From the NCBI RefSeq assembly GCF_025950095.1, contig NZ_JAPDDR010000001.1, positions 620,001-684,000 on the forward strand: a DNA stretch of 64,000 nucleotides, given 5' to 3'. Under the pieces are notes generated by a model. It was not told the origin of the DNA. It did no database searches and worked only from the letters and a program-made list of their open reading frames with translations. Below are positions 3,847 to 41,301 of this stretch, piece after piece (the first letter of the stretch is position 1; every line of letters begins with the position of its first letter). The position numbers and the translations under genes are program-made. This DNA is from Luteolibacter rhizosphaerae (GTDB taxonomy: Bacteria; Verrucomicrobiota; Verrucomicrobiia; Verrucomicrobiales; Akkermansiaceae).

Positions 3847-5622
3847 ATGCTTGTTTTTTCGGTTCTCGCAGCCGGGGCGGCGGATGTTTCGCCCCTCTTC
3901 GGTGTAATCAGCATGGTCCTCCTGATGGCCGTGCTGATGGCCCTCCTGCTGCACCGGCTGAAACAGAACTTCCTCGTGGGTTACATGATCTGCGGGATCA
4001 TCATCGCGAATACCTCGCTGCTCGGTTCCTTCGGCAGCGCGGATACCCAGATGGATGGCGTCATCGCCCACCTCGCGGAGATGGGCGTCATCCTGCTCAT
4101 GTTCACGCTCGGCATCGAGTTCTCCCTCGGCGAGCTGAAGCATCTCTGGCGCGTGTCCTTGATTGGCGGCGGCATCCAGGTCGGAACCATCTCCGCCATT
4201 GGCGGAGCCATCTGCTGGTTCTGTGGCATCCGTCCCGCCTCGGAGGTCGTGGTCCTCGCCGTCTCCGTGGCGCTCAGTTCCACCGCCGTCGCCATGAAGT
4301 CCTTCCAGGACATGGGGCAGCCGAACAATCCCTCGGCTCGAACGGCCCTGGCCATCGCCCTCTTCGACGACATTGTCGTCATTCTCTTCCTCATCATCCT
4401 GCCCGCACTCTTCGGGAAAGGGGAGGGGTCCATCGGCGGCGATATCGCGCTCGCGCTCGGGAAGGGCATCCTCTTCCTCGGCGGCACCATGCTGCTCGGC
4501 CGCTACGGCATCACCCCGCTCCTCCACGCGGTGGCCCGCACCCGCAGCAGCGAGCTTTTCACCCTGGCTGTCGTCGCCCTCTGCGCGGGTGTCGCGGTTC
4601 TCGGCGCCTTGCTCGGACTCTCGCCCGCACTCGGTGCCTTCGCCGCCGGCCTCATCGTCAGCGAGTCGATCTACCGCCACCGCATCATGGCGGACATCAT
4701 GCCCTTCAAGGATCTCTTCCTCGCGATCTTCTTCGTCTCGGTCGGGCTGCAGATCGATCTCGGCATCGTGATGAACGATTGGATGCGCATCCTCGGCTTC
4801 AGCATCCTGATCCTGATCGTGAAGGGCACCATCGCCTTCAATGTCGCCCGCCTCTTCAAGCTGCCCCTGCGCCCGGCCCTCCTCACCGGCGCCGCCCTCT
4901 CCAGCTCCGGCGAGTTCTCGCTGGTGCTCTTGGGCAAGGCTGCCGACTACCGCCCGGCCGATCCCTCCATCCAGCAGCTCCTCCTCAGCTGCGCCGCCTT
5001 CACCATGGCCACCGTGCCCCTGCTCATGCGCGGCAGCGGTCACGCCGGCCGCATCCTGGAAGGCACCGGTTTCTTCAAGCCGAAGAAGAAAACCGTGGGG
5101 GAAAACCTCACCCCCACTCTGGCGATCAAGGAGATCTCCGATCACGCCATCATCTGCGGCTACGGTCCCGTCGGTCGCTCGCTCAATGAAGCCCTCCGCC
5201 AGAGTGCCGTGGACACCCTTGTGCTCGAGCTCAATTCGGACACCGTGCGCGCGCTCAAGGCCGCCGGTCAGCCCGTCCTCTTCGCGGATGCTTCCCACTC
5301 GGAAGCTCTCGATCTGGCCGGCATCAGCCGCGCCCGCATGGTCGCCTTCACCTTCCCCGCCGTGGAGCTCACCAAGGCCGCCGTGCCCATCGTCCGCGAA
5401 CACAATCCCGGCATCGTGATCTTCGCCCGCGCCAAGTTCGCCGCCGAGATCGAAGAACTCCGCGCCCTCGAAATCGAAGTCATCCACGACGAACGCGAAA
5501 GCGCCGTCGCCATGATCGATGCCGCCAAAGGCGTCTACCAACGCATCGATCTGTCCGACGAGGACGTGCGTGAAATCGTGGACGGCAAGCAAACGCCGCC
5601 GATCGATGCGCGGCATTCATAG
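3847..5622 (+). CDS. CPA2-family cation:proton antiporter with TrkA-N domain (KefB/YbaL type)
   Basis: This inner-membrane transporter exchanges K+ or Na+ for protons. The start chosen (ATG 3847) gives 591 residues; the frame is open further upstream but that stretch overlaps the preceding gene and lacks transporter sequence. Residues 15-400 form about 12 hydrophobic helices typical of the Na_H_Exchanger fold (GYMICGIIIANTSLLG, GVILLMFTLGIEFSLGEL, LSPALGAFAAGLIVSES). A cytoplasmic TrkA-N/RCK domain begins near residue 430 (HAIICGYGPVGRSL) with the Rossmann glycine motif GxGxxG that binds NAD(H) and gates transport. There is no separate TrkA-C domain, as in the YbaL/KefB lineage. The exact ion cannot be read from the sequence. 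Confidence 0.88.
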   Translation: MLVFSVLAAGAADVSPLFGVISMVLLMAVLMALLLHRLKQNFLVGYMICGIIIANTSLLGSFGSADTQMDGVIAHLAEMGVILLMFTLGIEFSLGELKHLWRVSLIGGGIQVGTISAIGGAICWFCGIRPASEVVVLAVSVALSSTAVAMKSFQDMGQPNNPSARTALAIALFDDIVVILFLIILPALFGKGEGSIGGDIALALGKGILFLGGTMLLGRYGITPLLHAVARTRSSELFTLAVVALCAGVAVLGALLGLSPALGAFAAGLIVSESIYRHRIMADIMPFKDLFLAIFFVSVGLQIDLGIVMNDWMRILGFSILILIVKGTIAFNVARLFKLPLRPALLTGAALSSSGEFSLVLLGKAADYRPADPSIQQLLLSCAAFTMATVPLLMRGSGHAGRILEGTGFFKPKKKTVGENLTPTLAIKEISDHAIICGYGPVGRSLNEALRQSAVDTLVLELNSDTVRALKAAGQPVLFADASHSEALDLAGISRARMVAFTFPAVELTKAAVPIVREHNPGIVIFARAKFAAEIEELRALEIEVIHDERESAVAMIDAAKGVYQRIDLSDEDVREIVDGKQTPPIDARHS

Positions 5623-5772
5623 TAGCCGGAGAATCGTCCCCAATGTGACGATTTTTCCTTATTATTGGACGTGAATTGGCACGACCGCAGCTTCTAATGG
5701 ACCCACATAGGCTGTGGCGAGCGGAGTGATTTCTTGGGTTTCTTCACTCCAGTTTGTAGCAGCCGATCAAAA

Positions 5773-5818
5773 TACGGCCGGCACGGGGTTTCTTGGGTTT
5801 ACCCCCGTGCCGGCCGTA
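5773..5818 (+). terminator. 16-bp perfect inverted repeat, terminator-like
   Basis: The left arm at 5773-5788 (TACGGCCGGCACGGGG) is the exact reverse complement of 5803-5818, with a 14-base loop. The right arm is followed by ACGATTTT, a weak T tract, so it could act as a terminator for the antiporter transcript although it lies 150 bases after the stop. The loop contains TTTCTTGGGTTT, which also occurs just upstream at 5730-5741. That duplication is not usual for a simple terminator. Confidence 0.6.
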
Positions 5819-5875
5819 ACGATTTTCAGCCCGAGCACCATGTTGCCACGAAGCCATCCCTACGGCTTCCCGCCC

Positions 5876-5993
5876 AAGGGTATGTAGTCCCGCTTTCAAG
5901 CGGACGAAGCCATCTTTCGTTCCGCCTCACCTTACCGCCTCTTCTCCCGCGGCTCCGCCGCCTTGGACTGCGGCAGCCCTGCTGCCGTGAAGC
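5876..5993 (+). repeat. interspersed intergenic repeat, copy 1 (modules C then A-B)
   Basis: Module C (AAGGG..GTAGTCCCGC-TTTCAA-GCGGACGAA, 5876-5910) contains a small stem of CCGC/GCGG. Module A (CGCGGCTCCGCCGCCTTGG, from about 5948) runs into module B (CAGCCCTGCTGCCGTGAAGC). The same modules recur at 12157-12337, 12471-12631 and 20448-20575, always in the same orientation. Here the module order is C before A-B, whereas the other copies have A-B before C. Confidence 0.8.
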
Positions 5994-6040
5994 ACCCTCA
6001 CCGCCGATAATCCCATGCGCGCTCAGATCTCTCTCCAGAT

Positions 6041-6070
6041 TTTCGCGCCTTCTCGCGCCTTTTTGCGGCG
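6041..6070 (+). repeat. three degenerate 10-base repeats
   Basis: The sequence reads TTTCGCGCCT / TCTCGCGCCT / TTTTGCGGCG, a ten-base period with a pyrimidine run followed by a GCG core. Similar tracts occur at 10361-10400 and 13448-13474, all intergenic. Confidence 0.6.
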
Positions 6071-6147
6071 AAGAATCCCCACACCCATCTCCCGCCCAAA
6101 CATCTCAAATCCTTTGCGCCCGCCTTCACAGGCACTAGATCTAGCTC

Positions 6148-7731
6148 GTGCCGCCGAAAGACCACGAAACCAAGCTGGGCTCCGTTCTCGTTCGCAATCC
6201 CACCGTCGCCGACATTCCCGCCATCCTCGCCCTCCATCGCCGTTGCTTCCCGCAGGAAGGCGATGCCGGCGGCCCGTGGAATGAGAAGCACCTCCGCTCG
6301 CATATTCACGTATTCCCGGAGGGCCAGCTCCTCGCGGAGAAAGACGGCCAGATCCTCGGCGTGGCCTCTTCCCTCATCGTTTCGCTCGGGCGCAATCCGC
6401 TCCGCAAGCACACCTACGACGGCATCACCGACGACGGCTACTTCTACAATCACGACCCCCAGGGCGACACCCTCTACGGCGCGGACGTCTATGTGGATCC
6501 CGATGCCCGCAAGTTCGGCGTCGGTGCCGCGCTCTATTCCGCCCGCCGCGATCTCTGCCGCCGCCTGAATCTCCGCCGCATCCTCGCCGGCGCCCGCCTC
6601 TGGCACTACGACGAACACGCCGCCCGCCTCACTCCGGAGGAATACGTCTGGCAGGTGCAGGACGGCAAGATCCCGGACCCCGTCCTTGGCTTCCAGATCA
6701 AGCAAGGCTTCGCCGTCCGCGGCATCATGCCGAATTACCTCCACGATCACCGCTCGCGCGATCACGCCGCGCTGATCGAATGGATCAACCCGGAGTTCCA
6801 GGCCAACGATGAGACCAGTAACAAGGTCCGCGTCGCCTGCGTTCAATATCACATGCGCAAGGTCACCGACTTCGATGACTTCGCGAACCAAGTCCGCTAC
6901 TTCGTTGAGACGGCAGGGGAGGACTATGGCGCGGAGTTCGTCGTCTTCCCGGAGTTCCTCACCGTGCAACTCCTCAGCGCCCTGCCGCCGCTCGGCTCGC
7001 GGGAGGGCATTCGCAAGCTCTCGGAATACACCCCGCAGTTCATCGAACTCATGAGCGGCCTCGCCCGCCAGCAGGGTCTCTACCTCATCGCAGGTTCCCA
7101 TCCCGTCGCTCAACCCGATGGCCGCTTGGAGAACACCTCCATGATCTTCAAGCCGGATGGCACCCACGTTTCCCAGCCGAAGCTCCACATCACCCCCTCC
7201 GAGAAGACCTGGTGGGGCATCTCCGGCGGTGACTCCCTCATCGTGCTCCAGACCCCTAAGGCGAAGATCGGTGTGTTGATCTGCTACGACGTCGAGTTCC
7301 CTGAGGCCGCCCGCTATCTCGCCGATCGCGGCGTGGAAATACTATTCATCCCGTACTGCACGGACAATCGCCAGGGCTACCTCCGCGTCAGCCTCTGCGC
7401 CGCCGCCCGCGCCATCGAGAATCAGATCTACGTTGCCACCGCAGGCGTCGTCGGCAATCTGCCGGATGTCCCCGCCATGGACATCCACTACGGCCGTGCC
7501 GCCGTCTTCACCCCCAGCGATTTCGAGTTCGCCCGCGATGGCATCCAGGCCGAAGCCGACCCGAACGTGGAGACCATGCTCGTCACCGATCTCGACATCT
7601 CGGACCTTTATCGCTCCCGCCTGAATGGCAGCGTCACCCCCGTCACCGATCGCCGCACCGACCTCTTCGAATTCCATAACAAGCTCGCGAACGAAATCAT
7701 CGCTCCCGGTGTCCAGGAAGGGCATCTCTGA
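6148..7731 (+). CDS. GNAT acetyltransferase fused to carbon-nitrogen hydrolase (nitrilase superfamily)
   Basis: A 527-residue cytoplasmic two-domain protein starting at a GTG. Residues about 10-215 form a GNAT fold (VADIPAILALHRRCFP, ADVYVDPDARKFGVGAALY as the acetyl-CoA loop region). Residues about 228-520 are a nitrilase-superfamily domain with the Glu-Lys-Cys triad visible: Glu in FVVFPEFLT, Lys in PKLHITPSE, Cys in GVLICYDVEFPEAAR. The same architecture is known as a bifunctional GNAT/carbon-nitrogen hydrolase family; its substrate is not established to my knowledge. An amidase acting on an N-acylated or amide-containing metabolite, with the GNAT half acylating or recognising it, is inference. 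It stands alone, with repeats upstream. Confidence 0.88.
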   Translation: MPPKDHETKLGSVLVRNPTVADIPAILALHRRCFPQEGDAGGPWNEKHLRSHIHVFPEGQLLAEKDGQILGVASSLIVSLGRNPLRKHTYDGITDDGYFYNHDPQGDTLYGADVYVDPDARKFGVGAALYSARRDLCRRLNLRRILAGARLWHYDEHAARLTPEEYVWQVQDGKIPDPVLGFQIKQGFAVRGIMPNYLHDHRSRDHAALIEWINPEFQANDETSNKVRVACVQYHMRKVTDFDDFANQVRYFVETAGEDYGAEFVVFPEFLTVQLLSALPPLGSREGIRKLSEYTPQFIELMSGLARQQGLYLIAGSHPVAQPDGRLENTSMIFKPDGTHVSQPKLHITPSEKTWWGISGGDSLIVLQTPKAKIGVLICYDVEFPEAARYLADRGVEILFIPYCTDNRQGYLRVSLCAAARAIENQIYVATAGVVGNLPDVPAMDIHYGRAAVFTPSDFEFARDGIQAEADPNVETMLVTDLDISDLYRSRLNGSVTPVTDRRTDLFEFHNKLANEIIAPGVQEGHL

Positions 7732-33120: not shown

Positions 33121-34419
33121 ATGAATCGTCTTCGCGTGCTCAAGTTGGGCTGGGAGTTCCCCCCATTGATTAACGGCGGTCTGGGAGTTGCCTGCCTCGG
33201 TCTTTCGCAAGCTCTCGCCAAGCATGTCGACCTCCGGGTGGTCGTCCCGCGCTCCGCGCCCGAAGCGAACTTCGATGGCTTTCAGCTCACCGGCCTGAAC
33301 AATCTCCGCGTGGAAGAGCTGCAGACCGTGGAGGGAAAGTACCGCTACGAGAGTTTCGCCCAGATCGACCGCGTTCCGATCCACCTCGATCCCTACGATA
33401 CCAGCGAAACGACCGTGGAGCAGATCCGCATGGAGCCCGGCGGCGAGATCAGGTTCTCCACCACCACGCGGAACCAACTGGAGCAATTCAAGATGGGAGA
33501 ACTCTATGGTGCCGACCTCGGCACGAAGGTGGTCGAGTTCTCCAAGATCGCGGCGAAGCTCGCGATGCTGAGCGAATTCGATATCGTGCACGCTCACGAC
33601 TGGATGACTTTCCTGGCCGGAGTGGAGGTGAAGAAAGCCACCGGTAAACCGCTCGTCCTGCATGTCCACGCTTCGCAGTATGACCGCGCCGGTGCCGATG
33701 CCCGAGGATGGATCTACGACATCGAAAAGTATGGCATGGAGGAGGCTGATGCCGTCATTCCTGTGAGTCGCTATACCGGTCAGGTCTGTGCCGGCCACTA
33801 TGGGATCGATCCCGCGAAGATTCACCCGGTTCACAATGGTGCCGAGTCGGTGAAGGTCTTCAGCACGAAAAAGAAGTTTCCGGAGAAGCTGGTTCTCTTC
33901 CTCGGTCGTCTCACTGCGCAGAAGGGGCCGGAGTTCTTTCTGGAGATCGCTTCCAAGGTTCTTGATGTGAACAAGAACGTGCGTTTCGTGATGGCCGGTA
34001 CGGGCGAACGCTTGAAGCCATTGATCGAAAGCGGGGCCTTCCGCGGTCTTGGCGGCTACTTCCACTTCACGGGTTTCCTTAACAAGGAGAAGGTCAACGA
34101 GCTTCTCTCGATGACCGACATCTATTGCATGCCTTCCGTCTCCGAGCCCTTCGGCTTGTCCGCCTTGGAGGCGGCCCAATTCGGGATCCCCGCGGTGATC
34201 TCGAAGCAGTCCGGCGTTGCCGAGGTGCTCAAGGGCGCGCTTAAGGCCGATTTTTGGGATGTCGACCTGATGGCCAAGCACATTATCGATCTCCTTGAAG
34301 ACGACGAGCTTCGAGAGCGAGTGGTCAAGCAAGCCGAACAGGACATGGCTGCCTCGACATGGGACGCCGCAGCGGAGAAAGTCGTCTCGATTTACCGCGA
34401 TCTCCTCTCTTCCCGCTGA
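33121..34419 (+). CDS. GT4 glycosyltransferase, glycogen-synthase-like
   Basis: A 432-residue GT-B enzyme. The N-terminus LRVLKLGWEFPPLINGGLGV with the Gly-rich nucleotide loop and the IVHAHDWMTFLAGVEVKK segment match GlgA-like GT4 proteins. The C-terminal domain carries LFLGRLTAQKGPEFF and the E-x7-E motif in SEPFGLSALEAAQ. It would add glucose (from ADP- or UDP-glucose) in alpha linkage. The GH57 gene begins 18 bases downstream, a pairing I recognise from several bacterial phyla and usually connected with alpha-1,4-glucan synthesis or modification. Expression may be controlled by the hairpin leader. Confidence 0.88.
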   Translation: MNRLRVLKLGWEFPPLINGGLGVACLGLSQALAKHVDLRVVVPRSAPEANFDGFQLTGLNNLRVEELQTVEGKYRYESFAQIDRVPIHLDPYDTSETTVEQIRMEPGGEIRFSTTTRNQLEQFKMGELYGADLGTKVVEFSKIAAKLAMLSEFDIVHAHDWMTFLAGVEVKKATGKPLVLHVHASQYDRAGADARGWIYDIEKYGMEEADAVIPVSRYTGQVCAGHYGIDPAKIHPVHNGAESVKVFSTKKKFPEKLVLFLGRLTAQKGPEFFLEIASKVLDVNKNVRFVMAGTGERLKPLIESGAFRGLGGYFHFTGFLNKEKVNELLSMTDIYCMPSVSEPFGLSALEAAQFGIPAVISKQSGVAEVLKGALKADFWDVDLMAKHIIDLLEDDELRERVVKQAEQDMAASTWDAAAEKVVSIYRDLLSSR

Positions 34420-34437
34420 TCATCGCTTCCGGATTCC

Positions 34438-35643
34438 ATGCCCGACGTCTGCCTCTACTTTCAGGTGCATCAGCCGAACAGGTTGATCCCATACGATTTC
34501 TTCCGCATCGGTGAACACGCTTTCTACGAGGATGATGGGCTGAACGGTGAAGTTCTCTCGAAGGTTGCCGAGAAGTGCTATCTTCCTGCGAACGCACTCT
34601 TCCAGAAGGCGATCAAGGAGACGAAGGGGCGATTCCGGATGGCCCTGTCCATCAGCGGGACGGTCATCGAGCAGATGGAGCACCATCGCCCGGATGTGCT
34701 GAGGTCGTTCCAAGATTTGGTGGCCACCGGCAATGTCGAGTTGCTCGCCGAGACCTACTACCACTCGCTTGCCATCCTTCATTCGAAGAAGGAGTTCGAA
34801 CGGCAGGTGGAGCTTCACTTGGACAAGCTGGAAGAAGTTTTCCACGTGCGGCCCCGGGTCTTCCGCAATACCGAGCTTATCTACAACAATGCCATTGCCG
34901 CCCAAGCGGAGACGATGGGCTTCGACGGCATTCTTGCTGAGGGAGTGCCTTGGGTTCTCAACGGGCAATCGCCGAATTTCCTGTATCGCGCGCCGCACGT
35001 CTCGCAGCTCAAAACGATTCTCCGCAACATCGGGCTCTCCGATGATCTGGGCTTCCGCTTCTCCGACAAGAGTTGGTCCGAATGGCCGCTGACTCCGGAG
35101 AAGTTTGCGAAATGGCTCAAGAAGGCTCCGGGCGATGTGGTGAATCTCTTCCTCGACTACGAGACGATCGGTGAGCACCAGTGGAAGGACACCGGGATCT
35201 TCGAGTTTTGGGAGGCTTTACCCGAGGCAGTGCTTGATGAGGATATCAAATGGGTCACTCCCGGTGAGGTGGTTGATCTCTTCCGCGCCTCCAAGGACTA
35301 CGACTGCCACTGGCCTACTTCATGGGCAGATGCCGAGCGCGATCTCAGCGCTTGGACTGGAAACGTCATGCAGCAGGAAGCGATCGCCAAGATTCATCGC
35401 CTGGAGGAAGAGGTTTTGGCGGCGAAGGACCCGAGCCTCAGCCATGTCTGGGCGAAGATGCAGACCTCCGATCATTTCTATTGGATGTCTACCAAGGGAG
35501 GGACGGACGGGAGCGTTCATCAATACTTCTCGCCCTACGGCAGCGCCTACGATGGCTACATCTATTTCATGAACGCTCTTGCCGATCTTCAGATCCGGCT
35601 CAAGCGGCCCCAAGAGAAGAAGGAGTCGCCCGAGGAGGAATAG
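34438..35643 (+). CDS. GH57 glycoside hydrolase (alpha-amylase-like)
   Basis: A 401-residue protein, the short type of GH57. Conserved elements are visible: FQVHQPNRL at residues 8-16 (His11 in the active site), the nucleophile Glu146 in FRNTELIYN, and the acid/base Asp240 in LFLDYETIGEH. The C-terminal helical domain follows (SHVWAKMQTSDHFYWMSTKG). GH57 members hydrolyse or transfer alpha-1,4 (or create alpha-1,6) glucan bonds; the exact activity cannot be read. It forms a two-gene operon with the GT4 enzyme. The charged tail (KRPQEKKESPEEE) is probably disordered. Confidence 0.9.
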   Translation: MPDVCLYFQVHQPNRLIPYDFFRIGEHAFYEDDGLNGEVLSKVAEKCYLPANALFQKAIKETKGRFRMALSISGTVIEQMEHHRPDVLRSFQDLVATGNVELLAETYYHSLAILHSKKEFERQVELHLDKLEEVFHVRPRVFRNTELIYNNAIAAQAETMGFDGILAEGVPWVLNGQSPNFLYRAPHVSQLKTILRNIGLSDDLGFRFSDKSWSEWPLTPEKFAKWLKKAPGDVVNLFLDYETIGEHQWKDTGIFEFWEALPEAVLDEDIKWVTPGEVVDLFRASKDYDCHWPTSWADAERDLSAWTGNVMQQEAIAKIHRLEEEVLAAKDPSLSHVWAKMQTSDHFYWMSTKGGTDGSVHQYFSPYGSAYDGYIYFMNALADLQIRLKRPQEKKESPEEE

Positions 35644-35645
35644 GT

Positions 35646-35663
35646 GCCCGCTCTCAGGCGGGC
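35646..35663. terminator. hairpin between convergent genes
   Basis: GCCCGC-TCTCAG-GCGGGC starts three bases after the GH57 stop and overlaps the last codons of the EcsC-like gene. No T tract follows on either strand, so it is at best a weak shared terminator. Confidence 0.45.
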
Positions 35664-36322
35664 GGCAAGGGCGGAGGAAGCTTTGGGGATGGGTTGTCGC
35701 CGAGAGTGATCGATGGGGCTGAGTCCTCTTCAAGAAGAGAGGCATCGCTGCTGAAGAACTCAATGGCGGTGAGCGCAACCTTGCGGGTATCGGCATAGGC
35801 ATAGCCGCCGACTCCGATCGCGCCGGCGACGGGGATCCAACGTGAGAGGGATTTGCGGATGCTGGTCTGGGTGATCTTTACTCCAATACGGCTGGCTACC
35901 TTCTGAAGGGTCTGAAAGGAAGCCTGCCGCACAAGGTAGCGCTCTCCCACGCGGACAACGAGATCACGCATTGCCTGAGCGGCGGTATGGCGGAAGAGGC
36001 AGTAGAGCATGCGCTCCTTGGACAACTCTCCGGACTTGCCGAAGACTGCAGCGATATCGGCGACCATCTGTTGCTGGATTTTCCAGACGCCGATGAGTTC
36101 GGGTAGGATTGTGAGCCAAGCGAGAGGTCCGGGCGGGAGCGAAAGCATCCCTGCTGTCGTTCCTGCCTTGAGGGCGGCGGCGTTAGCGAGGGAAAGTGCT
36201 TTTGACTTGGGCGTGAAACTAGCGACCTGCGTGCTCGCGGGGACCTCACCTACAAAGCGCAAGATGGCATTGGCGATCTTCTCGGCTGGAGTAGGCTCCG
36301 GCGGCTTGATGGCTTGGGTCAT
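35654..36322 (-). CDS. EcsC-family protein
   Basis: A 222-residue protein. The central block MLSLPPGPLAWLTILPELIGVWKIQQQMVADIAAVFGK is characteristic of the EcsC family (shown here as positions about 79-116; key features PGP, LP.L..VW..Q..MV..IA). Two hydrophobic stretches (79-95 and 164-176) suggest membrane association, and the Pro-rich ends are likely disordered. EcsC lies with an ABC transporter in Bacillus, but in many bacteria the family is solitary and of unknown role. It converges on the GH57 gene. Confidence 0.8.
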   Translation of the reverse strand: MTQAIKPPEPTPAEKIANAILRFVGEVPASTQVASFTPKSKALSLANAAALKAGTTAGMLSLPPGPLAWLTILPELIGVWKIQQQMVADIAAVFGKSGELSKERMLYCLFRHTAAQAMRDLVVRVGERYLVRQASFQTLQKVASRIGVKITQTSIRKSLSRWIPVAGAIGVGGYAYADTRKVALTAIEFFSSDASLLEEDSAPSITLGDNPSPKLPPPLPPA

Positions 36323-36394: not shown

Positions 36395-38854
36395 TTAGCG
36401 GGGGAGGTCTTGAAGCCAGCGGCGGAGCTGGTTGAGGTCGGCGGGTTTCACGAGGTGCTCATTGAAGCCGGCGTCCTTGGCCCGCTGGCGGTCCTCGGAG
36501 GTGCCGTAGCCGGTGAGTGCAACAAGAAAAGCATCCGTTAGGTCGGGGAGGGCGCGGAGTTGGCGGGCGACTTCGTAGCCGTCCATGCCGGGGAGGCCGA
36601 TGTCGAGAAGGACGACCTCGGGGTGGAACTCGGTGGCGGCGAGGATGGCTTCCGGGCCGGTGTGGGCGATGCGGGTGAGATGACCGGAGAGTTCCTGCAG
36701 CATGGCCATGCTCTCGGCGGAATCGCGGTTGTCGTCCACGATGAGCATGCGCAGTCCCTTGGGTGAGGAGGTGTACGCCGGCGTGGCCCGCGAATCGGTC
36801 GACGGAGCATCCCGGACAGGGAGGCGGATGGTGAAGGCGGTGCCGCGGCCCAATCCGTCGCTATGTGCCTCAATGAAGCCGTCGTGCATGGTGACGAGGC
36901 GCTGAACGATCGTGAGGCCGATGCCGAGACCTCCGTGAGCTCGGTCGAGGGTGCGACTGGATTGGACGAAGAGATCGAAGATGCGGGGGAGAAGTTCGGG
37001 GTCAATGCCCGCTCCGTCGTCCGCGACGCGGATGAGGACCAGGTTGCGCTCCGGCTCCAGTTCCGCGCTGATCGAGATGTGGCAACTGCTGCCGGCGTAC
37101 TTGGAAGCGTTGCCCAGCAGGTTCCCGAAGACTTGTTCGAGGCGGGTGGGGTCGGCGTGGACGTAGACCGGCTGCGAGGGAAGCGAGACCGTGAGCTGCT
37201 GGCCCTGCGAGGTGCAGGCGGGGCGGATGAGATTGGCGGCGGACTGGAGAATGCCGGCGAGGGGGATGGTCTGCTTCTGCAAGGTGATCTTGCCTTCGGT
37301 GATGCGCGAGACATCGAGGAGGTCGTCGATCATGCGGCTCATGTTCTCGATCTGACGGCCAATGAGACGCTGGGCGGCCGCGCGGTCGATCGGCTTGGTG
37401 TCGTCGATCTGGAGAATCTCCGCGGCGTTGCGGAGCGGGGCGAGCGGATTGCGCAGCTCATGGGCGAGCATGGCGAGGAATTCGTCCTTGCGACGGTCCG
37501 CTTCCTCGAGAGCCGTGGTCTGGGCGAGCAGCGCGTCCTTGAGCCGGATTTCCTCGGTGATGTCGCTGAAATAACAGACCACGCCGTGGCTGCCACCGGG
37601 GAGGGCGAGGCGCTGAAGTTCCCATTCGTAAGACTGAACCACGCCGATGTCCTCGCGGGTTTGGGTGAAACGCGGAGACACGAAAGGCTCGCCAGTTTCC
37701 AAGGTGTGGCGGAAGCGGGCGGTAATGGATTCGGCGAGATCCTCGCCCCAGAGGATGGAGAGCGCTTCGAGCAGGGGTCTGCCGATCACAGGTTCCGCTT
37801 CGGAGAAAACAGGCCGACCCTTCTCATTCACCTCTACGATATCCAAGTTTTCATCGACAACATAGACGCCCCCCGGGGCGCGGCGAATGATCTCCACGAA
37901 GAGCGCTTCATTTCGCCGCAGGGCTTCTTCCGCTTCCTTGCGTTGGGTGATGTCGTTGAAGACGATGGCGACGAGATTCTGGCCCGGCTCGCCGACGCGC
38001 ATGGCATAGAGGTCGTAATGTCGGCGCAAGGTGGGGGCGAAACGCTCGAAGCGCAGGGCCTCCCCGGTGAGTGCGACGTTCCCGTAGATTCCATACCACT
38101 CATCCGATTGCCCAGGCATGAGTTGGCGGGAGGTCTTGCCAACAACGTCTTTCAGTCCGGTTTGATGGAGGAAGGACGGATTGGTCTCCAAGAACAGGTA
38201 GTCGTAGGCTTCGCCGTCCGGAGTGAAGAGCACTTCAACCACGCAGAACCCTTCATCGATCGAGTTGAAGAGAGTGCGGTAGCGCTCTTCCGAAGAGCGC
38301 AGGGCTGCCTCCGCTTGACGTCGTCCCGTGATGTCGCGAATGACGGCGAGAAGTCCACCGGGCATTCCATCGCGATCGATCAGCCGGCTGACGGAAGACT
38401 CAACATGAATGCGGACGCCATCGCGGCGGATGTGGATGTTCTCGCCGCGCCAATGGCCTGTGGATGCGATTTCCGCGAAGGAGAGGGCTTCGTCTTCCGG
38501 TCGCACCCAGAGATACTGGTAGAGCTCGGTGAGGGGGCGTCCGAGCGCTTCGGAGGTGGGAATGCCATACTGCTCCTCGGCGGCAGTGTTGAAATAGATG
38601 ACCTTGTTGTTCGCATCTAGTGCGACCACCGCCTCGCTGACCTTTGAAAGGATATCGCTGCGAAAACGGTTTGATTCGGCGTCCGAACTTTGGAGGATGT
38701 AGACTTGGGGGCCGGGTTCGCCCTCAACGATCAGGCCGTCCACCTCGCCATGCCGGATCGCCCGCAGCGTATCTTCCGCCTCTTCAAGCCGTGCGTGCAG
38801 ATCGGCGTTCTCGGCGCGGAGTTTCTGCAGGATAGTGGAATCTTCCGCACTCAT
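36395..38854 (-). CDS. PAS hybrid sensor histidine kinase with receiver domain (Kai operon)
   Basis: An 819-residue soluble kinase. A short coiled coil (residues 5-32) is followed by three PAS domains (about 65-180, 185-310, 315-435; SSEERYRTLFNSIDEGFCVV starts the second). The HisKA phospho-acceptor is His465 in MLAHELRNPL. The HATPase runs about 562-680 (VADDGAGIDPELL, HGGLGIGLTIVQ). A C-terminal receiver has Asp751 in VVLLDIGLPGMDG, with TGYG and VKP also present. It has no transmembrane helix, so it senses a cytoplasmic signal. The ATG directly abuts the stop of the kaiB-like gene, placing it last in the kaiC-kaiB-kaiB operon as a probable output. Unlike cyanobacterial SasA it lacks an N-terminal KaiB-like domain. 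Confidence 0.92.
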   Translation of the reverse strand: MSAEDSTILQKLRAENADLHARLEEAEDTLRAIRHGEVDGLIVEGEPGPQVYILQSSDAESNRFRSDILSKVSEAVVALDANNKVIYFNTAAEEQYGIPTSEALGRPLTELYQYLWVRPEDEALSFAEIASTGHWRGENIHIRRDGVRIHVESSVSRLIDRDGMPGGLLAVIRDITGRRQAEAALRSSEERYRTLFNSIDEGFCVVEVLFTPDGEAYDYLFLETNPSFLHQTGLKDVVGKTSRQLMPGQSDEWYGIYGNVALTGEALRFERFAPTLRRHYDLYAMRVGEPGQNLVAIVFNDITQRKEAEEALRRNEALFVEIIRRAPGGVYVVDENLDIVEVNEKGRPVFSEAEPVIGRPLLEALSILWGEDLAESITARFRHTLETGEPFVSPRFTQTREDIGVVQSYEWELQRLALPGGSHGVVCYFSDITEEIRLKDALLAQTTALEEADRRKDEFLAMLAHELRNPLAPLRNAAEILQIDDTKPIDRAAAQRLIGRQIENMSRMIDDLLDVSRITEGKITLQKQTIPLAGILQSAANLIRPACTSQGQQLTVSLPSQPVYVHADPTRLEQVFGNLLGNASKYAGSSCHISISAELEPERNLVLIRVADDGAGIDPELLPRIFDLFVQSSRTLDRAHGGLGIGLTIVQRLVTMHDGFIEAHSDGLGRGTAFTIRLPVRDAPSTDSRATPAYTSSPKGLRMLIVDDNRDSAESMAMLQELSGHLTRIAHTGPEAILAATEFHPEVVLLDIGLPGMDGYEVARQLRALPDLTDAFLVALTGYGTSEDRQRAKDAGFNEHLVKPADLNQLRRWLQDLPR

Positions 38855-39205
38855 TCAGCCCGGGTAAGAGGGGTCGAGACCGAGTCCGGAGAGGATCTTT
38901 CTCGTATCCGACATATCACCGATGAAGCGGCGCAGCGGAAGCGGTCCGATCTTCACGAGCGTGGGCGCCGCAATGATCTGATCCACGGCCGCCAGCTCGG
39001 GATGCTCCCTTAGATTGAGAATATCGAGGTGGTAGCGGTCCGCCAGATGCTCGTTGCAGATCCGGCGGGTGTTTACGATCGCGCGGTTGGACTGCTGCGT
39101 ATCGCCGATTACGTAAAGCCGGAGCTTGATGCAAGCAGCGGCATTTTCCGCAGAAGCGGCCTCCATGGCGCGGAGATTCTCGTCGGTAGAGGAGGCTTTC
39201 TTCAT
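38855..39205 (-). CDS. divergent KaiB-family protein
   Basis: A 116-residue thioredoxin-like KaiB relative. IKLRLYVIGDTQQSNRAIVN and DILNLREHPELAAVDQIIAAPTL and RRFIGDMSDTRKILSGLGL are recognisable, but it differs from canonical KaiB at many positions (for example Asn/Glu-rich in place of the ID-L-NPQLA motif). It has a 25-residue polar N-terminal extension. It lies 6 bases after the canonical kaiB and directly before the kinase. KaiB binds KaiC and, after fold switching, output kinases. Two unequal copies suggest divided tasks: one for KaiC, one for the kinase. That split is inference. Confidence 0.88.
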   Translation of the reverse strand: MKKASSTDENLRAMEAASAENAAACIKLRLYVIGDTQQSNRAIVNTRRICNEHLADRYHLDILNLREHPELAAVDQIIAAPTLVKIGPLPLRRFIGDMSDTRKILSGLGLDPSYPG

Positions 39206-39211
39206 CGGATC

Positions 39212-39541
39212 TCAGTCCGTAAGCGGCTGGACATCGAGGCCGACAAGGACACGCTCCTCATTGGAGAGATCGCCGATGATCTTCTTGATCGGCTCCGGAA
39301 GGCGCCGGACCAAGGTGGGTACAGCCAAAATCTGATCTCCGGCGGCAAGTTGCGGCGTCTTGAGCAGATCGATCAGCTCAATGCGATACTGGCCGGCGAG
39401 ATGAGTCTCACAAATGCGTTTCAGGTTATTGAAGGCAGCGAGCGACTTGGATGTTTGGCCCGCGACGTAGAGACGCAATTGGTAAGCCGGGACGGTTGCC
39501 CCCGAAGATGAAGGTTTGGAAGAGGATTTCGGCTCTTTCAT
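39212..39541 (-). CDS. kaiB: canonical KaiB circadian-clock protein
   Basis: A 109-residue Kai[41 protein letters not shown] and [18 protein letters not shown] match the family closely, including the IDLLK-PQLA and IGDLSN.E.VL.GLD signatures. KaiB binds the CI ring of KaiC, in cyanobacteria after switching from its tetramer fold to a thioredoxin fold. Its ATG overlaps the kaiC stop by four bases (ATGA), so the two are translationally coupled. A Ser/Lys-rich 18-residue N-terminal extension precedes the domain. Confidence 0.93.
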
Positions 39542-41301
39542 CGCTTTCCTTTTTTTAGACTGTCTTTCGCGGACAGCTGGCTACCGCGGCGTATCGCCAT
39601 TTTGTCCAAGTTGCGGCGATCATTTTCAATGCGGGCCGCTTCTTCTGCAACGGAGAAGTCCAATTCCGCGGATTCCACATCCAAATCGGCTTGGAGGGCG
39701 GCGATCTGAGACTCGATCGTCTTCCGTTTGCTGGCAAGCTGGCGGAGCTTGCGGGCGTGGGATTGGAGGCGCAGTTCTGCATCGGAGCGTTCGCGAGCTT
39801 CCTGAGCCACGCGGGAGGTCCCGGTAAGCACGCCGTCCGTGCCGATGTAGACATCGACGAGCGAAATGCCACTATCGTTAAGGAGAAACTCGCGAACCTG
39901 ATTCGAATGGGACATGCCGCGAGCCTTGAGGACGTAGATAGTCCGATTGCGTTCGCCGTTCATCTCATGGTTGCGGAGGAGCAGCCAGACATCCATCAGC
40001 GAGGACACCCCGACTTGGGAATCCTCCGGTGCCGTGGTGCTGTTCGCTCCCGAGGTAAGGCTGGTGAAGACCGCGGTGATCTCGTGCTTCTTGAGGTGGT
40101 CGATCAGGCGCATCAAAGTAGGCTTCACCTCGATGTCATCGCGCACGAAGGTGAGGTTGCTGATCGGATCGACTGCGACGACGGAAGGATTGAAGTCGGC
40201 GATAAGATCGTGCATCGCGAGAAGGTGCTGCTCAAGGCCCTGAAGGGTAGGGCGGGAGGCATGGATCTGGAGCAGGCCCTTCTTGATCCAAGGGGCGAGG
40301 TCGAGGCCGATCGAGCGCATGTTCCGGACGATTTGATCCGCGGATTCCTCGTAAGCAAAAAGGATGGCACGTTCGCCCCTGCGGCAGGCCGCATTGACGA
40401 AGCTTGCCCCGATGCTGCTCTTGCCAGTGCCAGGTGAACCGGAGACGAGGATGCTAGCACCACGAAAAACCCCTTTTCCTCCGAGCATTTGGTCCAAGCC
40501 GTCGATGCCCGTTGGGAAGCGCTCGGTGGGAGCAGCGTGATCGAGGCGCAGCGAGGTGATCGGAAGCACGGAGAGGCCATGCTCGCCGATCAGGAAGGGG
40601 TATTCATTGGTTCCGTGGCTGGAGCCGCGGTATTTCACGACACGCAGACGGCGGGTTGAAACCTGCCCGGTTACGCGATGATCCAGAGTGATCACGCAAT
40701 CCGCGACATACTCCTCAAGGCCGTAGCGTGTGAGGGAGGCCTCGCCGGTTTCCCCCGTGACAAGGGCAGTGATGCCGCGCTCCTTGAGCCAGCGGAAGAG
40801 CCGGCGGAGCTCGGCACGGAGAATGGCGTGGCTCGGGAGTCCGGCGAAGAGGGCTTCAAGCGTATCAAGCACGACCCGCTTGGCACCGATGCTACGGATG
40901 GCATGATCGAGGCGGATGAAGAGGCCCTCAAGGTCGTATTCGCCGGTTTCCTCGATCTCGCTGCGTTCGATGCGGACATGGTCGAGGACGATCTTTTTCT
41001 CCGCGGAAAGCTTATCGAGGTCGAAGCCGAGCGAACGAACATTCGCGGTGAGTTCCTCCGAATTCTCCTCGAACATGAGAAAAACCCCCGGCTCGTTGAA
41101 CTGCGTGGCACCGCGCACCAAGAATTCGGTGGCTAGCATGGTTTTACCCGCGCCAGCACTCCCTGAAACCAGTGTCGGGCGTCCCGTGGGGAATCCGCCT
41201 TCCGTGATCTCGTCCAAACCCGTAATTCCCGTGGGGGCCTTTGGGATAGAGAGCTGCTTGGCAGATAGAGACTTCCGAGGAGGATTATTGCGATTCGCCA
41301 T
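39538..41301 (-). CDS. kaiC: KaiC clock ATPase with C-terminal coiled-coil extension
   Basis: A 587-residue double-RecA ATPase. CI has Walker A GSAGAGKT at residues 47-54 and catalytic Glu78-Glu79 (FEEN). CII has Walker A GSPGTGKS at 288-295 and Glu318-Glu319 (YEES). The dual phosphorylation site, Ser431-Thr432 in Synechococcus (ISTITD), aligns here with Ser433-Ser434 (VSSLMD). Residues about 500-575 form a long heptad-patterned coiled coil rich in Glu, Arg and Lys, in place of the short KaiA-binding tail. Similar coiled-coil tails occur in the Rhodobacter KaiC that runs a KaiA-free timer. No kaiA is in the window. It is first in the operon; an inverted repeat lies 19 bases before its ATG. 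Confidence 0.94.

Follow-up and report, generated by a model that had tools for sequence, protein, structure and literature searches.

KaiBC timers are widespread outside cyanobacteria, and how their state reaches the rest of the cell is an open question. We analyzed a window of 64,000 nucleotides (the whole stretch of DNA under study) from Luteolibacter rhizosphaerae, in which kaiC, two kaiB genes and a gene for a PAS-containing hybrid histidine kinase follow one another (Table 1). The four genes and their boundaries are as a preliminary description had read them: kaiC and kaiB1 overlap by 4 bases in an ATGA, a gap of 6 bases separates kaiB1 from kaiB2, and the ATG of the kinase gene directly abuts the kaiB2 stop. 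We think it fairly probable that the operon encodes a KaiA-independent timer of KaiC2 and KaiB with a dedicated output kinase, which would read the timer through a module at its N terminus.

Table 1. Features of the kai operon, with positions in the window
Feature	Position	Strand	Description
kaiC	41301-39538	-	587 aa; KaiC2/R. sphaeroides type: two ATPase domains, Ser433-Ser434, C-terminal tail starting at about residue 492
kaiB1	39541-39212	-	109 aa; first-copy KaiB subfamily; nearest solved relative is R. sphaeroides KaiB (8fwj, 105 bits)
kaiB2	39205-38855	-	116 aa; second-copy KaiB subfamily; best structural match is Legionella KaiB 4kun
Hybrid histidine kinase	38854-36395	-	819 aa; N-terminal module, three PAS, HisKA (His465), HATPase, receiver (LLDI at 749)
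Unnamed N-terminal module of the kinase	38681..38812	-	residues 15-58; predicted helix (3-34) and beta hairpin (40-45, 48-53)

The KaiC protein (362 bits in Pfam) keeps both Walker A motifs (at 47 and 288) and both Glu-Glu pairs (78-79 and 318-319), and its two phosphorylation-site serines align with the serine pair of Rhodobacter sphaeroides KaiC. It aligns with the solved structure of that protein (PDB 8DBA) over residues 17-585 at 637 bits. The alignment spans the C-terminal extension of about 50 residues, which is homologous to the R. sphaeroides extension. This tail had been described as a heptad-patterned coiled coil. The long tail stands, but a plain heptad test on it alone gave no significant pattern (its value was equalled in 471 of 5000 shuffles), and it is homology that suggests a coiled coil. 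The R. sphaeroides type is also defined by a dodecamer and by phosphorylation that needs no KaiA and is driven by ATP/ADP.

Genome-wide profile searches found one double-domain KaiC and two KaiBs in the genome, all of them in this operon. Two further PF06745 matches occur in the genome, both weak. The preliminary description had named a kaiA elsewhere in the genome as evidence against its reading; we found no match to the KaiA profile PF07688 in the genome, which is 98% complete, and this profile detects KaiA in Synechococcus elongatus. Homology supports a system that works without KaiA, like that of R. sphaeroides, and for which the PAS kinase is the likely dedicated output. A cyanobacterial KaiABC clock would be recognized by KaiA, Ser-Thr sites, a short KaiC tail and kaiB before kaiC, and the locus has none of these.

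The operon might instead sense energy or stress, with KaiC reporting ATP/ADP or stress without measuring time. The ATP-to-ADP ratio is given as the cue in R. sphaeroides (PMC10076222), and KaiC1 and KaiC2 of Methylobacterium extorquens are reported to govern temperature-dependent UV resistance (PMC8069551). However, KaiBC-only systems are described as having a basic, hourglass-like timekeeping (PMC10076222), and the KaiC of the window shares its architecture with the R. sphaeroides protein. We regard a sensor that keeps no time as somewhat unlikely.

Both kaiB products match the KaiB family far above the cut-off of 27 bits (PF07689; 88 bits for kaiB1 and 79 for kaiB2), so both contain true KaiB domains, including the second gene, which had been called divergent and KaiB-like. 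In a tree, first and second KaiBs form one clean split, with a single change if the count is restricted to the 89+89 tandem rows. This rules out a recent local duplication; the two are old paralogues. The layout had been proposed to be distinct, but it recurs across many phyla. Tandem KaiBs occur in 22 of 38 loci from the window's own class, on an annotated plasmid, and in 66 of 69 named loci with a KaiB, a set that is biased because it was fetched by KaiB2 homology. A kinase 3′ of kaiBC has also been described (PMC3164672), and kaiC1-kaiB2-kaiB1-kaiR1 is the published gene order of M. extorquens (PMC8069551).

An AF2 model of KaiB2 has a predicted N-terminal helix of low confidence and a thioredoxin-like topology. 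Its order of elements is strand-helix-strand-helix-strand-strand-helix, which we take to be that of the fold-switched state, and structural matches agree. The model is not decisive on the state, because AF2 by default also gives the fold-switched state for Thermosynechococcus KaiB (PMC10808063). Three changes reported to flip R. sphaeroides KaiB in the same source are not the common residues in KaiB2, where positions were matched with an inferred numbering shift of one.

The kinase has PAS, HisKA, HATPase and receiver domains in Pfam, and all three PAS domains that had been read in it were recovered with a custom profile. It begins with a module of 44 residues, absent from the preliminary description, that is predicted to form a long helix (with high confidence) and a beta hairpin. 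The module has no name in Pfam or NCBIfam. Its top Pfam match, LysR_substrate, is below the cut-off (E 0.007-0.03), and the best sequence match of its profile in the PDB has an E-value of 0.054; we took both to be chance. By Pfam it is not a KaiB domain, and its predicted structure is a helix and hairpin. We found no description of it in open-licence PMC text, where such a motif is hard to search for as words and absence from print is not implied. The module may be new.

The module is closely tied to kai genes. A profile scan of three bacterial classes found it in 40 of 895 genomes, once in each (29/285 in the window's class, 4/289 and 7/321 in the others). In 38 of the 40, a kaiB on the same strand immediately precedes the match; two of these are weak (G040, 25 bits and partial; G741, 35 bits), and in G682 the adjoining kaiB has an internal stop. 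The remaining two matches are partial (G045, 33 bits; G853, 24 bits) and are the only ones among 814 genomes that lack a KaiB match at E 1e-3. In most larger genomes of these scans at most 22-25 candidates were scored, and diverged copies outside kai loci may have escaped detection. Conversely, many genomes with a KaiB over the cut-off lack the module: 7 of 35 in the class of the window, where four of the seven have a diverged form, and 6 of 10 and 17 of 23, respectively, in the two other classes.

Starting from 48 of the 70 named kai loci, we reached 47 genomes, including four that the class scans had covered. They contain 49 module matches, of which 47 fall at the queried locus; of the other two, one belongs to a further kai operon and one to a kai locus in decay. 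A single-sequence search matched four of 72,556 plasmid records, each directly after a KaiB, and the module also occurs in a record titled Candidatus Methanoperedens (archaea). Some of the loci counted with A1 and the mod profile had also served to build them; the R. sphaeroides kinase and the matches in G376, G636, G645, G658, G682 and G741 come from outside the profile-building loci. Locus counts include duplicates (L095 and L108 are the same genome place, and L035 and L036 are near copies), and kai regions from the class of G308 cover 14 of its 23 KaiB genomes over the cut-off, plus L066, with eight weaker ones, including G682, left out.

A helix preceding a PAS domain is a usual arrangement, and the Foldseek matches shown for a model of the module with its PAS are mostly PAS/LOV-containing proteins, among them LOV proteins with N-terminal helices. 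The module could be only a dimerization helix that caps the PAS, inherited with the operon and making no contact with Kai proteins. Yet a generic cap would be expected in other PAS kinases of the same genomes as well, whereas in the class scans the module occurs once per genome and almost always beside kaiB. It is also kept while the output domain changes. We consider a mere cap improbable.

The output domains joined to the module are HisKA, HisKA_3 and HWE kinases and GGDEF-EAL enzymes; among 112 proteins, five with HATPase only, two others and three cut by contig ends were not classed. A KaiC tree of 91 rows, made with FastTree, requires at least 9 changes of output class, although its well-supported branches force fewer (6 for HisKA versus the rest). 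Most likely, the module couples the state of KaiB and KaiC to interchangeable output enzymes, presumably by binding. Co-inheritance of a compact operon could account for part of its association with kai. We see about an even chance that the module is a dedicated, transferable output adaptor of KaiA-independent clocks in many bacterial phyla and archaea, one that reads the KaiB/KaiC assembly, has repeatedly been joined to different effectors and is the non-cyanobacterial counterpart of the clock-reading domains of SasA and CikA.

The module might contact one Kai protein in particular. One candidate is the C-terminal tail of KaiC, whose coiled-coil bundle the long, confidently predicted kinase helix might join or read. 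Of 88 examined loci whose KaiC is long-tailed and has Ser-Ser sites, 85 have the full module (L118 and L124 lack it, and L052 shows only its end), as against none of 14 with a Ser-Thr KaiC. Module distances also correlate best with those of KaiC (partial r 0.50, 0/500 permutations), but this Mantel test, which favors KaiC as the partner, is confounded by phylogeny. Against the tail, heptad enrichment in the module helix is marginal (195/5000 shuffles reach it), and G137, a 100% complete genome in one contig, retains KaiB2 and the module kinase without KaiC. Moreover, six loci keep the module beside a Ser-Ser KaiC of short or cut tail, though some of these may be assembly errors; the module therefore probably has a partner other than the tail. 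Docking on the tail is in our view quite unlikely.

The other candidate is KaiB2, which had been proposed as the adaptor between KaiC and the kinase: KaiB1 would serve KaiC timing, and KaiB2 alone would relay the KaiC signal to the module as its docking site. This division of labor agrees with the clean split of the two KaiBs, with G137, and with a lone KaiB2-type copy beside module kinases in L097, L099, L130, L134, L137 and L217 (also L126, by a small margin, and L216, at a contig end). When KaiC and the other KaiB are controlled for across 75 loci, the distances of the module track KaiB2 (partial r 0.13, 1/500 permutations) and not KaiB1 (0.03, 137/500). However, the KaiB2 value is small and confounded by operon co-inheritance, and KaiC distances explain the module best. 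The module also occurs with a single KaiB1-type copy in R. sphaeroides, L204 and L206, and, in a weak form, in L199. An exclusive role for KaiB2 is partly supported, but we lean against it.

We favor a timer that the module reads more broadly. KaiC would autophosphorylate Ser433 and Ser434 without KaiA and be regulated by its C-terminal tail, as R. sphaeroides KaiC is; the likely cue would be the ATP/ADP ratio of the cell. KaiB1 would bind phosphorylated KaiC and drive its return. The module would read the state of the KaiC-KaiB assembly by docking on KaiB, KaiC or both, changing kinase activity, and the receiver of the kinase itself might then relay phosphate to a target unlinked to the operon. 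KaiB2, as a specialized paralogue that may stay in the thioredoxin-like, KaiC-binding fold, would either take part at the docking site or compete for it. Because the module marks clock outputs and is present in R. sphaeroides, whose KaiC and KaiB are solved, the output question becomes directly testable. The module also provides a tag by which clock-driven kinases and c-di-GMP enzymes can be found in sequences.

Cyanobacterial SasA is likewise a kinase with a clock-dedicated N-terminal piece. That piece is a KaiB-like thioredoxin domain, whereas the module is a predicted helix and hairpin, and Pfam finds no KaiB domain in the window kinase, which is therefore not of SasA type. RtaNt kinases, encoded beside kaiC, carry a conserved domain at the N terminus for which KaiC binding has been proposed (PMC3164672). 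As described there, this domain is distantly KaiB/SasA-like and its genomes lack kaiB, unlike the window; the module, with no KaiB match in Pfam and its predicted helix and hairpin, is probably a different domain.

M. extorquens AM1 has kaiC, two kaiBs and a fourth gene, kaiR1 (PMC8069551), which we compared by order alone; its KaiC1 is phosphorylated on two serines (S432 and S433), and the KaiC of the window has a serine pair as well. R. sphaeroides KD131 (PMC10076222; PDB 8DBA, 8FWJ) shares the KaiC type, the Ser-Ser sites and the tail, and is described there as lacking KaiA, for which the genome of the window gave no match either. It has one KaiB instead of two and an HWE kinase instead of a HisKA hybrid kinase, but its plasmid order kaiC-kaiB-kinase is that of the window and its kinase (WP_012643402.1) bears the same N-terminal module. 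Plasmid p3 of Pararhizobium qamdonense has one PAS found in the kinase versus three in the window, and carries the same arrangement of kaiC, two kaiBs and a hybrid kinase with the module.

As the preliminary description had it, the operon is a tightly packed run of kaiC, two kaiB genes (kaiB1 and kaiB2, in order after kaiC) and a hybrid kinase gene. Both small genes encode a KaiB domain (88 and 79 bits with Pfam; cut-off 27), and KaiC has the residues previously listed for it: two Walker A motifs, Glu-Glu at 78 and 318, and Ser433-Ser434. In the 6.2 Mb, 98% complete genome, we found no KaiA (PF07688), no KaiB beyond the operon's two and no second double-domain KaiC. Nearby sugar-polymer genes face the operon, with one gene between, which may be chance.

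Features of the operon and its flanks (window coordinates)
Feature	Position	Strand	Remark
Four-gene run	36395-41301	-	kaiC, kaiB1, kaiB2, hybrid kinase
kaiC-kaiB1 junction		-	4-base overlap
kaiB1-kaiB2 junction		-	6-base gap
Hybrid kinase, 819 residues		-	ATG abuts kaiB2 stop
Module, kinase residues 15-58	38812-38681	-	conserved consensus stretch
Gene directly 3′ of kinase	35654-36322	-	sole match EcsC, sub-threshold
Sugar-polymer genes	33121-35643	+	glycosyltransferase with starch-synthase-like domain; GH57 glycosidase

The top PDB match of this KaiC by phmmer, by a wide margin, is R. sphaeroides KaiC 8DBA (637 bits over residues 17-585, including the tail); the remaining full-length KaiCs in the PDB score about 324-378 bits. 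In R. sphaeroides KaiC, an extension of ~50 residues is a coiled coil that takes over the work of KaiA, and the phosphosites of its subgroup are two serines (PMC10076222). Because the tail of the window's KaiC, taken by itself, gave no significant result in a simple heptad shuffle test (471 of 5000 shuffles), the earlier coiled-coil claim for this tail rests on homology.

Proteins encoded downstream of kaiB have in common a module that immediately precedes the first PAS and has the consensus ExxxLRxRLxEAEETLxAIRxGEVDALVVxGxxGxQVYTLxGAD. The module profile matches 102 of 104 downstream proteins, a few by fragments only, and was trained on these same proteins. No family in Pfam or NCBIfam covers the module, no PDB chain matches it convincingly, and we found no prior description in open-licence PMC text. 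An AF2 model (54 rows) predicts a helix at 3-34 followed by a hairpin at 40-45/48-53; confidence is high up to about residue 50 (80-97 in blocks of ten) and lower across 51-70 (66-68).

We searched whole genomes with a 47-row module profile. In the window's class, 29 of 285 genomes have one match apiece, and in 28 of these the module lies just downstream of a KaiB (one match, in G040, is partial at 25 bits). The lone exception, G045, is a 74% complete genome with a partial match of 33 bits, and it lacks a KaiC match as well. Seven of the class's 35 genomes with KaiB over cut-off give no match; four have a diverged module (L131/L132, L135, L136, L138) and three have none (L110, L118, L124). The class centred on an Azospirillum genome (G295) has the module in 4/289 genomes, adjoining tandem kaiBs in all four, and 6 of its 10 genomes with KaiB over cut-off are without it. 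The class centred on a Caballeronia genome (G308) has it in 7/321, six beside kaiB, including a weak match (G741, 35 bits) and one adjoining a kaiB with an internal stop (G682); the seventh is a 24-bit fragment in a genome without KaiB (G853). In this class, 17 of the 23 genomes whose KaiB passes the cut-off lack the module. Over the three classes, the module occurs in 40/895 genomes, beside kaiB in 38; the other two are among the 814 genomes that have no KaiB match at E 1e-3.

Through 48 named loci we searched 47 genomes, four of which (G295, G299, G301, G308) overlap the class scans. Of the 49 module matches in them, 47 fall at the locus that led to the genome; the other two lie in a second kai operon (L167) and a decayed kai locus (L104). 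A single module is found on the R. sphaeroides plasmid, in its HWE kinase. A tblastn search of 72,556 plasmids with the window kinase's 79 N-terminal residues gave 4 records, each directly after KaiB; this single-sequence query missed all 9 Cereibacter records that have KaiB, although the profile detects the KD131 copy. The module is highly kai-specific and is the piece that merits testing.

The KaiC classes were compared at 118 loci with a usable KaiC (L095 and L108 are one genome place counted twice). A full module is found in 85 of 88 loci whose KaiC combines the Ser-Ser pair with a tail of >=80 residues, and in none of 14 Ser-Thr loci, five of which have a diverged form and one of which (L141) runs to a contig end. 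Where a Ser-Ser KaiC has a short or cut tail, the full module occurs in 6/11 loci and a weak or diverged form in two more; the remaining three (L200, L201, L209), which lack the module in any form, have low-scoring KaiCs, and in two kaiB precedes kaiC. Therefore, the module accompanies the R. sphaeroides class of KaiC. The single-KaiB loci L131, L132, L135, L136, L138 and L139 have a diverged module (such as QELTGGEVDAV) ahead of multi-PAS kinases, and their KaiCs have Ser-Thr where readable and a different long tail starting LMGTLRWEKE.

Output domains vary. Among 112 downstream proteins are 82 HisKA, 12 HisKA_3 and 3 HWE kinases, 5 GGDEF/EAL proteins, 5 with HATPase only, 3 cut and 2 other; Pfam was run on nine examples. 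A receiver is present in 56 of the 82 HisKA proteins, two of these 56 without the module. A FastTree KaiC tree (91 rows) requires at least nine output-class changes with the module retained, and fewer if only well-supported branches are counted. One Nitrospira genome has separate kai operons (L044, L167), each with a terminal module-bearing GGDEF/EAL protein. In L117 (6349-7404), where the tandem-KaiB operon is normal in other respects, the frame of a module-PAS protein ends before a kinase domain is reached.

The KaiB pair looks old and co-inherited, given fixed-position differences (mostly DIYQQP and IIAAPTLVK in second copies, DLL-NP and ILAIPTLVR in first) and a single first/second change on the KaiB tree. 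That count covers only 89 first and 89 second rows; adding 18 single-copy rows and one middle row requires more than one change, and the tree has 85 columns and many unresolved forks. Class profiles assign 178/178 rows correctly, having been made from those rows. The KaiB2 AF2 model is strand-helix-strand-helix-strand-strand-helix (pLDDT about 90 across the domain, mean 81.6), and its best structural match is Legionella KaiB 4kun (rmsd 1.0), whose crystal form is described as the fold-switched state (PMC10808063). Because AF2 tends towards that state for KaiB (PMC10808063), the model is a weak indication that KaiB2 is fold-switched.

It is possible that KaiB2 is an adaptor between KaiC and the module kinase, as proposed earlier. 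A lone KaiB2-type copy accompanies a module kinase at L097, L099, L130, L134, L137, L217 and L216 (at a contig end), and less clearly at L126. One of these genomes, G137, is 100% complete in a single contig and encodes KaiB2 and the module kinase but no KaiC; it has two PF06745 matches, both weak. This case rests on one genome, because in two congeners with the module KaiC is present or the locus stops at a contig edge. The module also occurs with only a KaiB1-type copy in R. sphaeroides, L204 and L206 (the latter two with KaiC in broken frames) and, in weak form, L199. In distance tests on 75 loci, the module follows KaiC first, KaiB2 next and KaiB1 not at all, although shared descent confounds this ranking. 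At L134 (G137:C1:212500-225000; 4921-7204, - strand), the KaiB2-type gene and a module-bearing HisKA_3 kinase adjoin a response regulator with a LuxR-like tail by eye, perhaps a clock output surviving loss of its clock.

The layout, suggested earlier as distinct, is ordinary and already known. A KaiB2 query, which biases the set, gave 70 named loci, with titles including Verrucomicrobiota, Acidobacteria, Lentisphaerae, Planctomycetaceae, Nitrospira, Bacteroidetes, Hymenobacter, several proteobacteria groups, Gemmatimonadetes, Acidimicrobium and Candidatus Methanoperedens. KaiB is present in 69 by our KaiB profile, in tandem in 66 of those, and tandem KaiBs occur in 22/38 loci from the window's class. 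A Desulfarculales operon has three tandem KaiB genes (L089, 5997-6949) in the genome with the decayed locus L104, and in L119 (6357-6611) the second KaiB is split over two frames, with KaiC, the first KaiB and the module kinase all still readable.

Similar gene orders are in print. In almost all non-cyanobacterial kaiC-kaiB clusters of one account, the gene immediately following kaiC or kaiB encodes a kinase or a GGDEF/EAL protein (PMC3164672), M. extorquens has kaiC1-kaiB2-kaiB1-kaiR1 (PMC8069551) and R. palustris has kaiC-kaiB-PAS kinase (PMC4794148). R. sphaeroides KD131 has a plasmid-borne kaiC-kaiB-HWE kinase, and Pararhizobium has kaiC-kaiB-kaiB-hybrid kinase. The window operon is one more member of this known kind.
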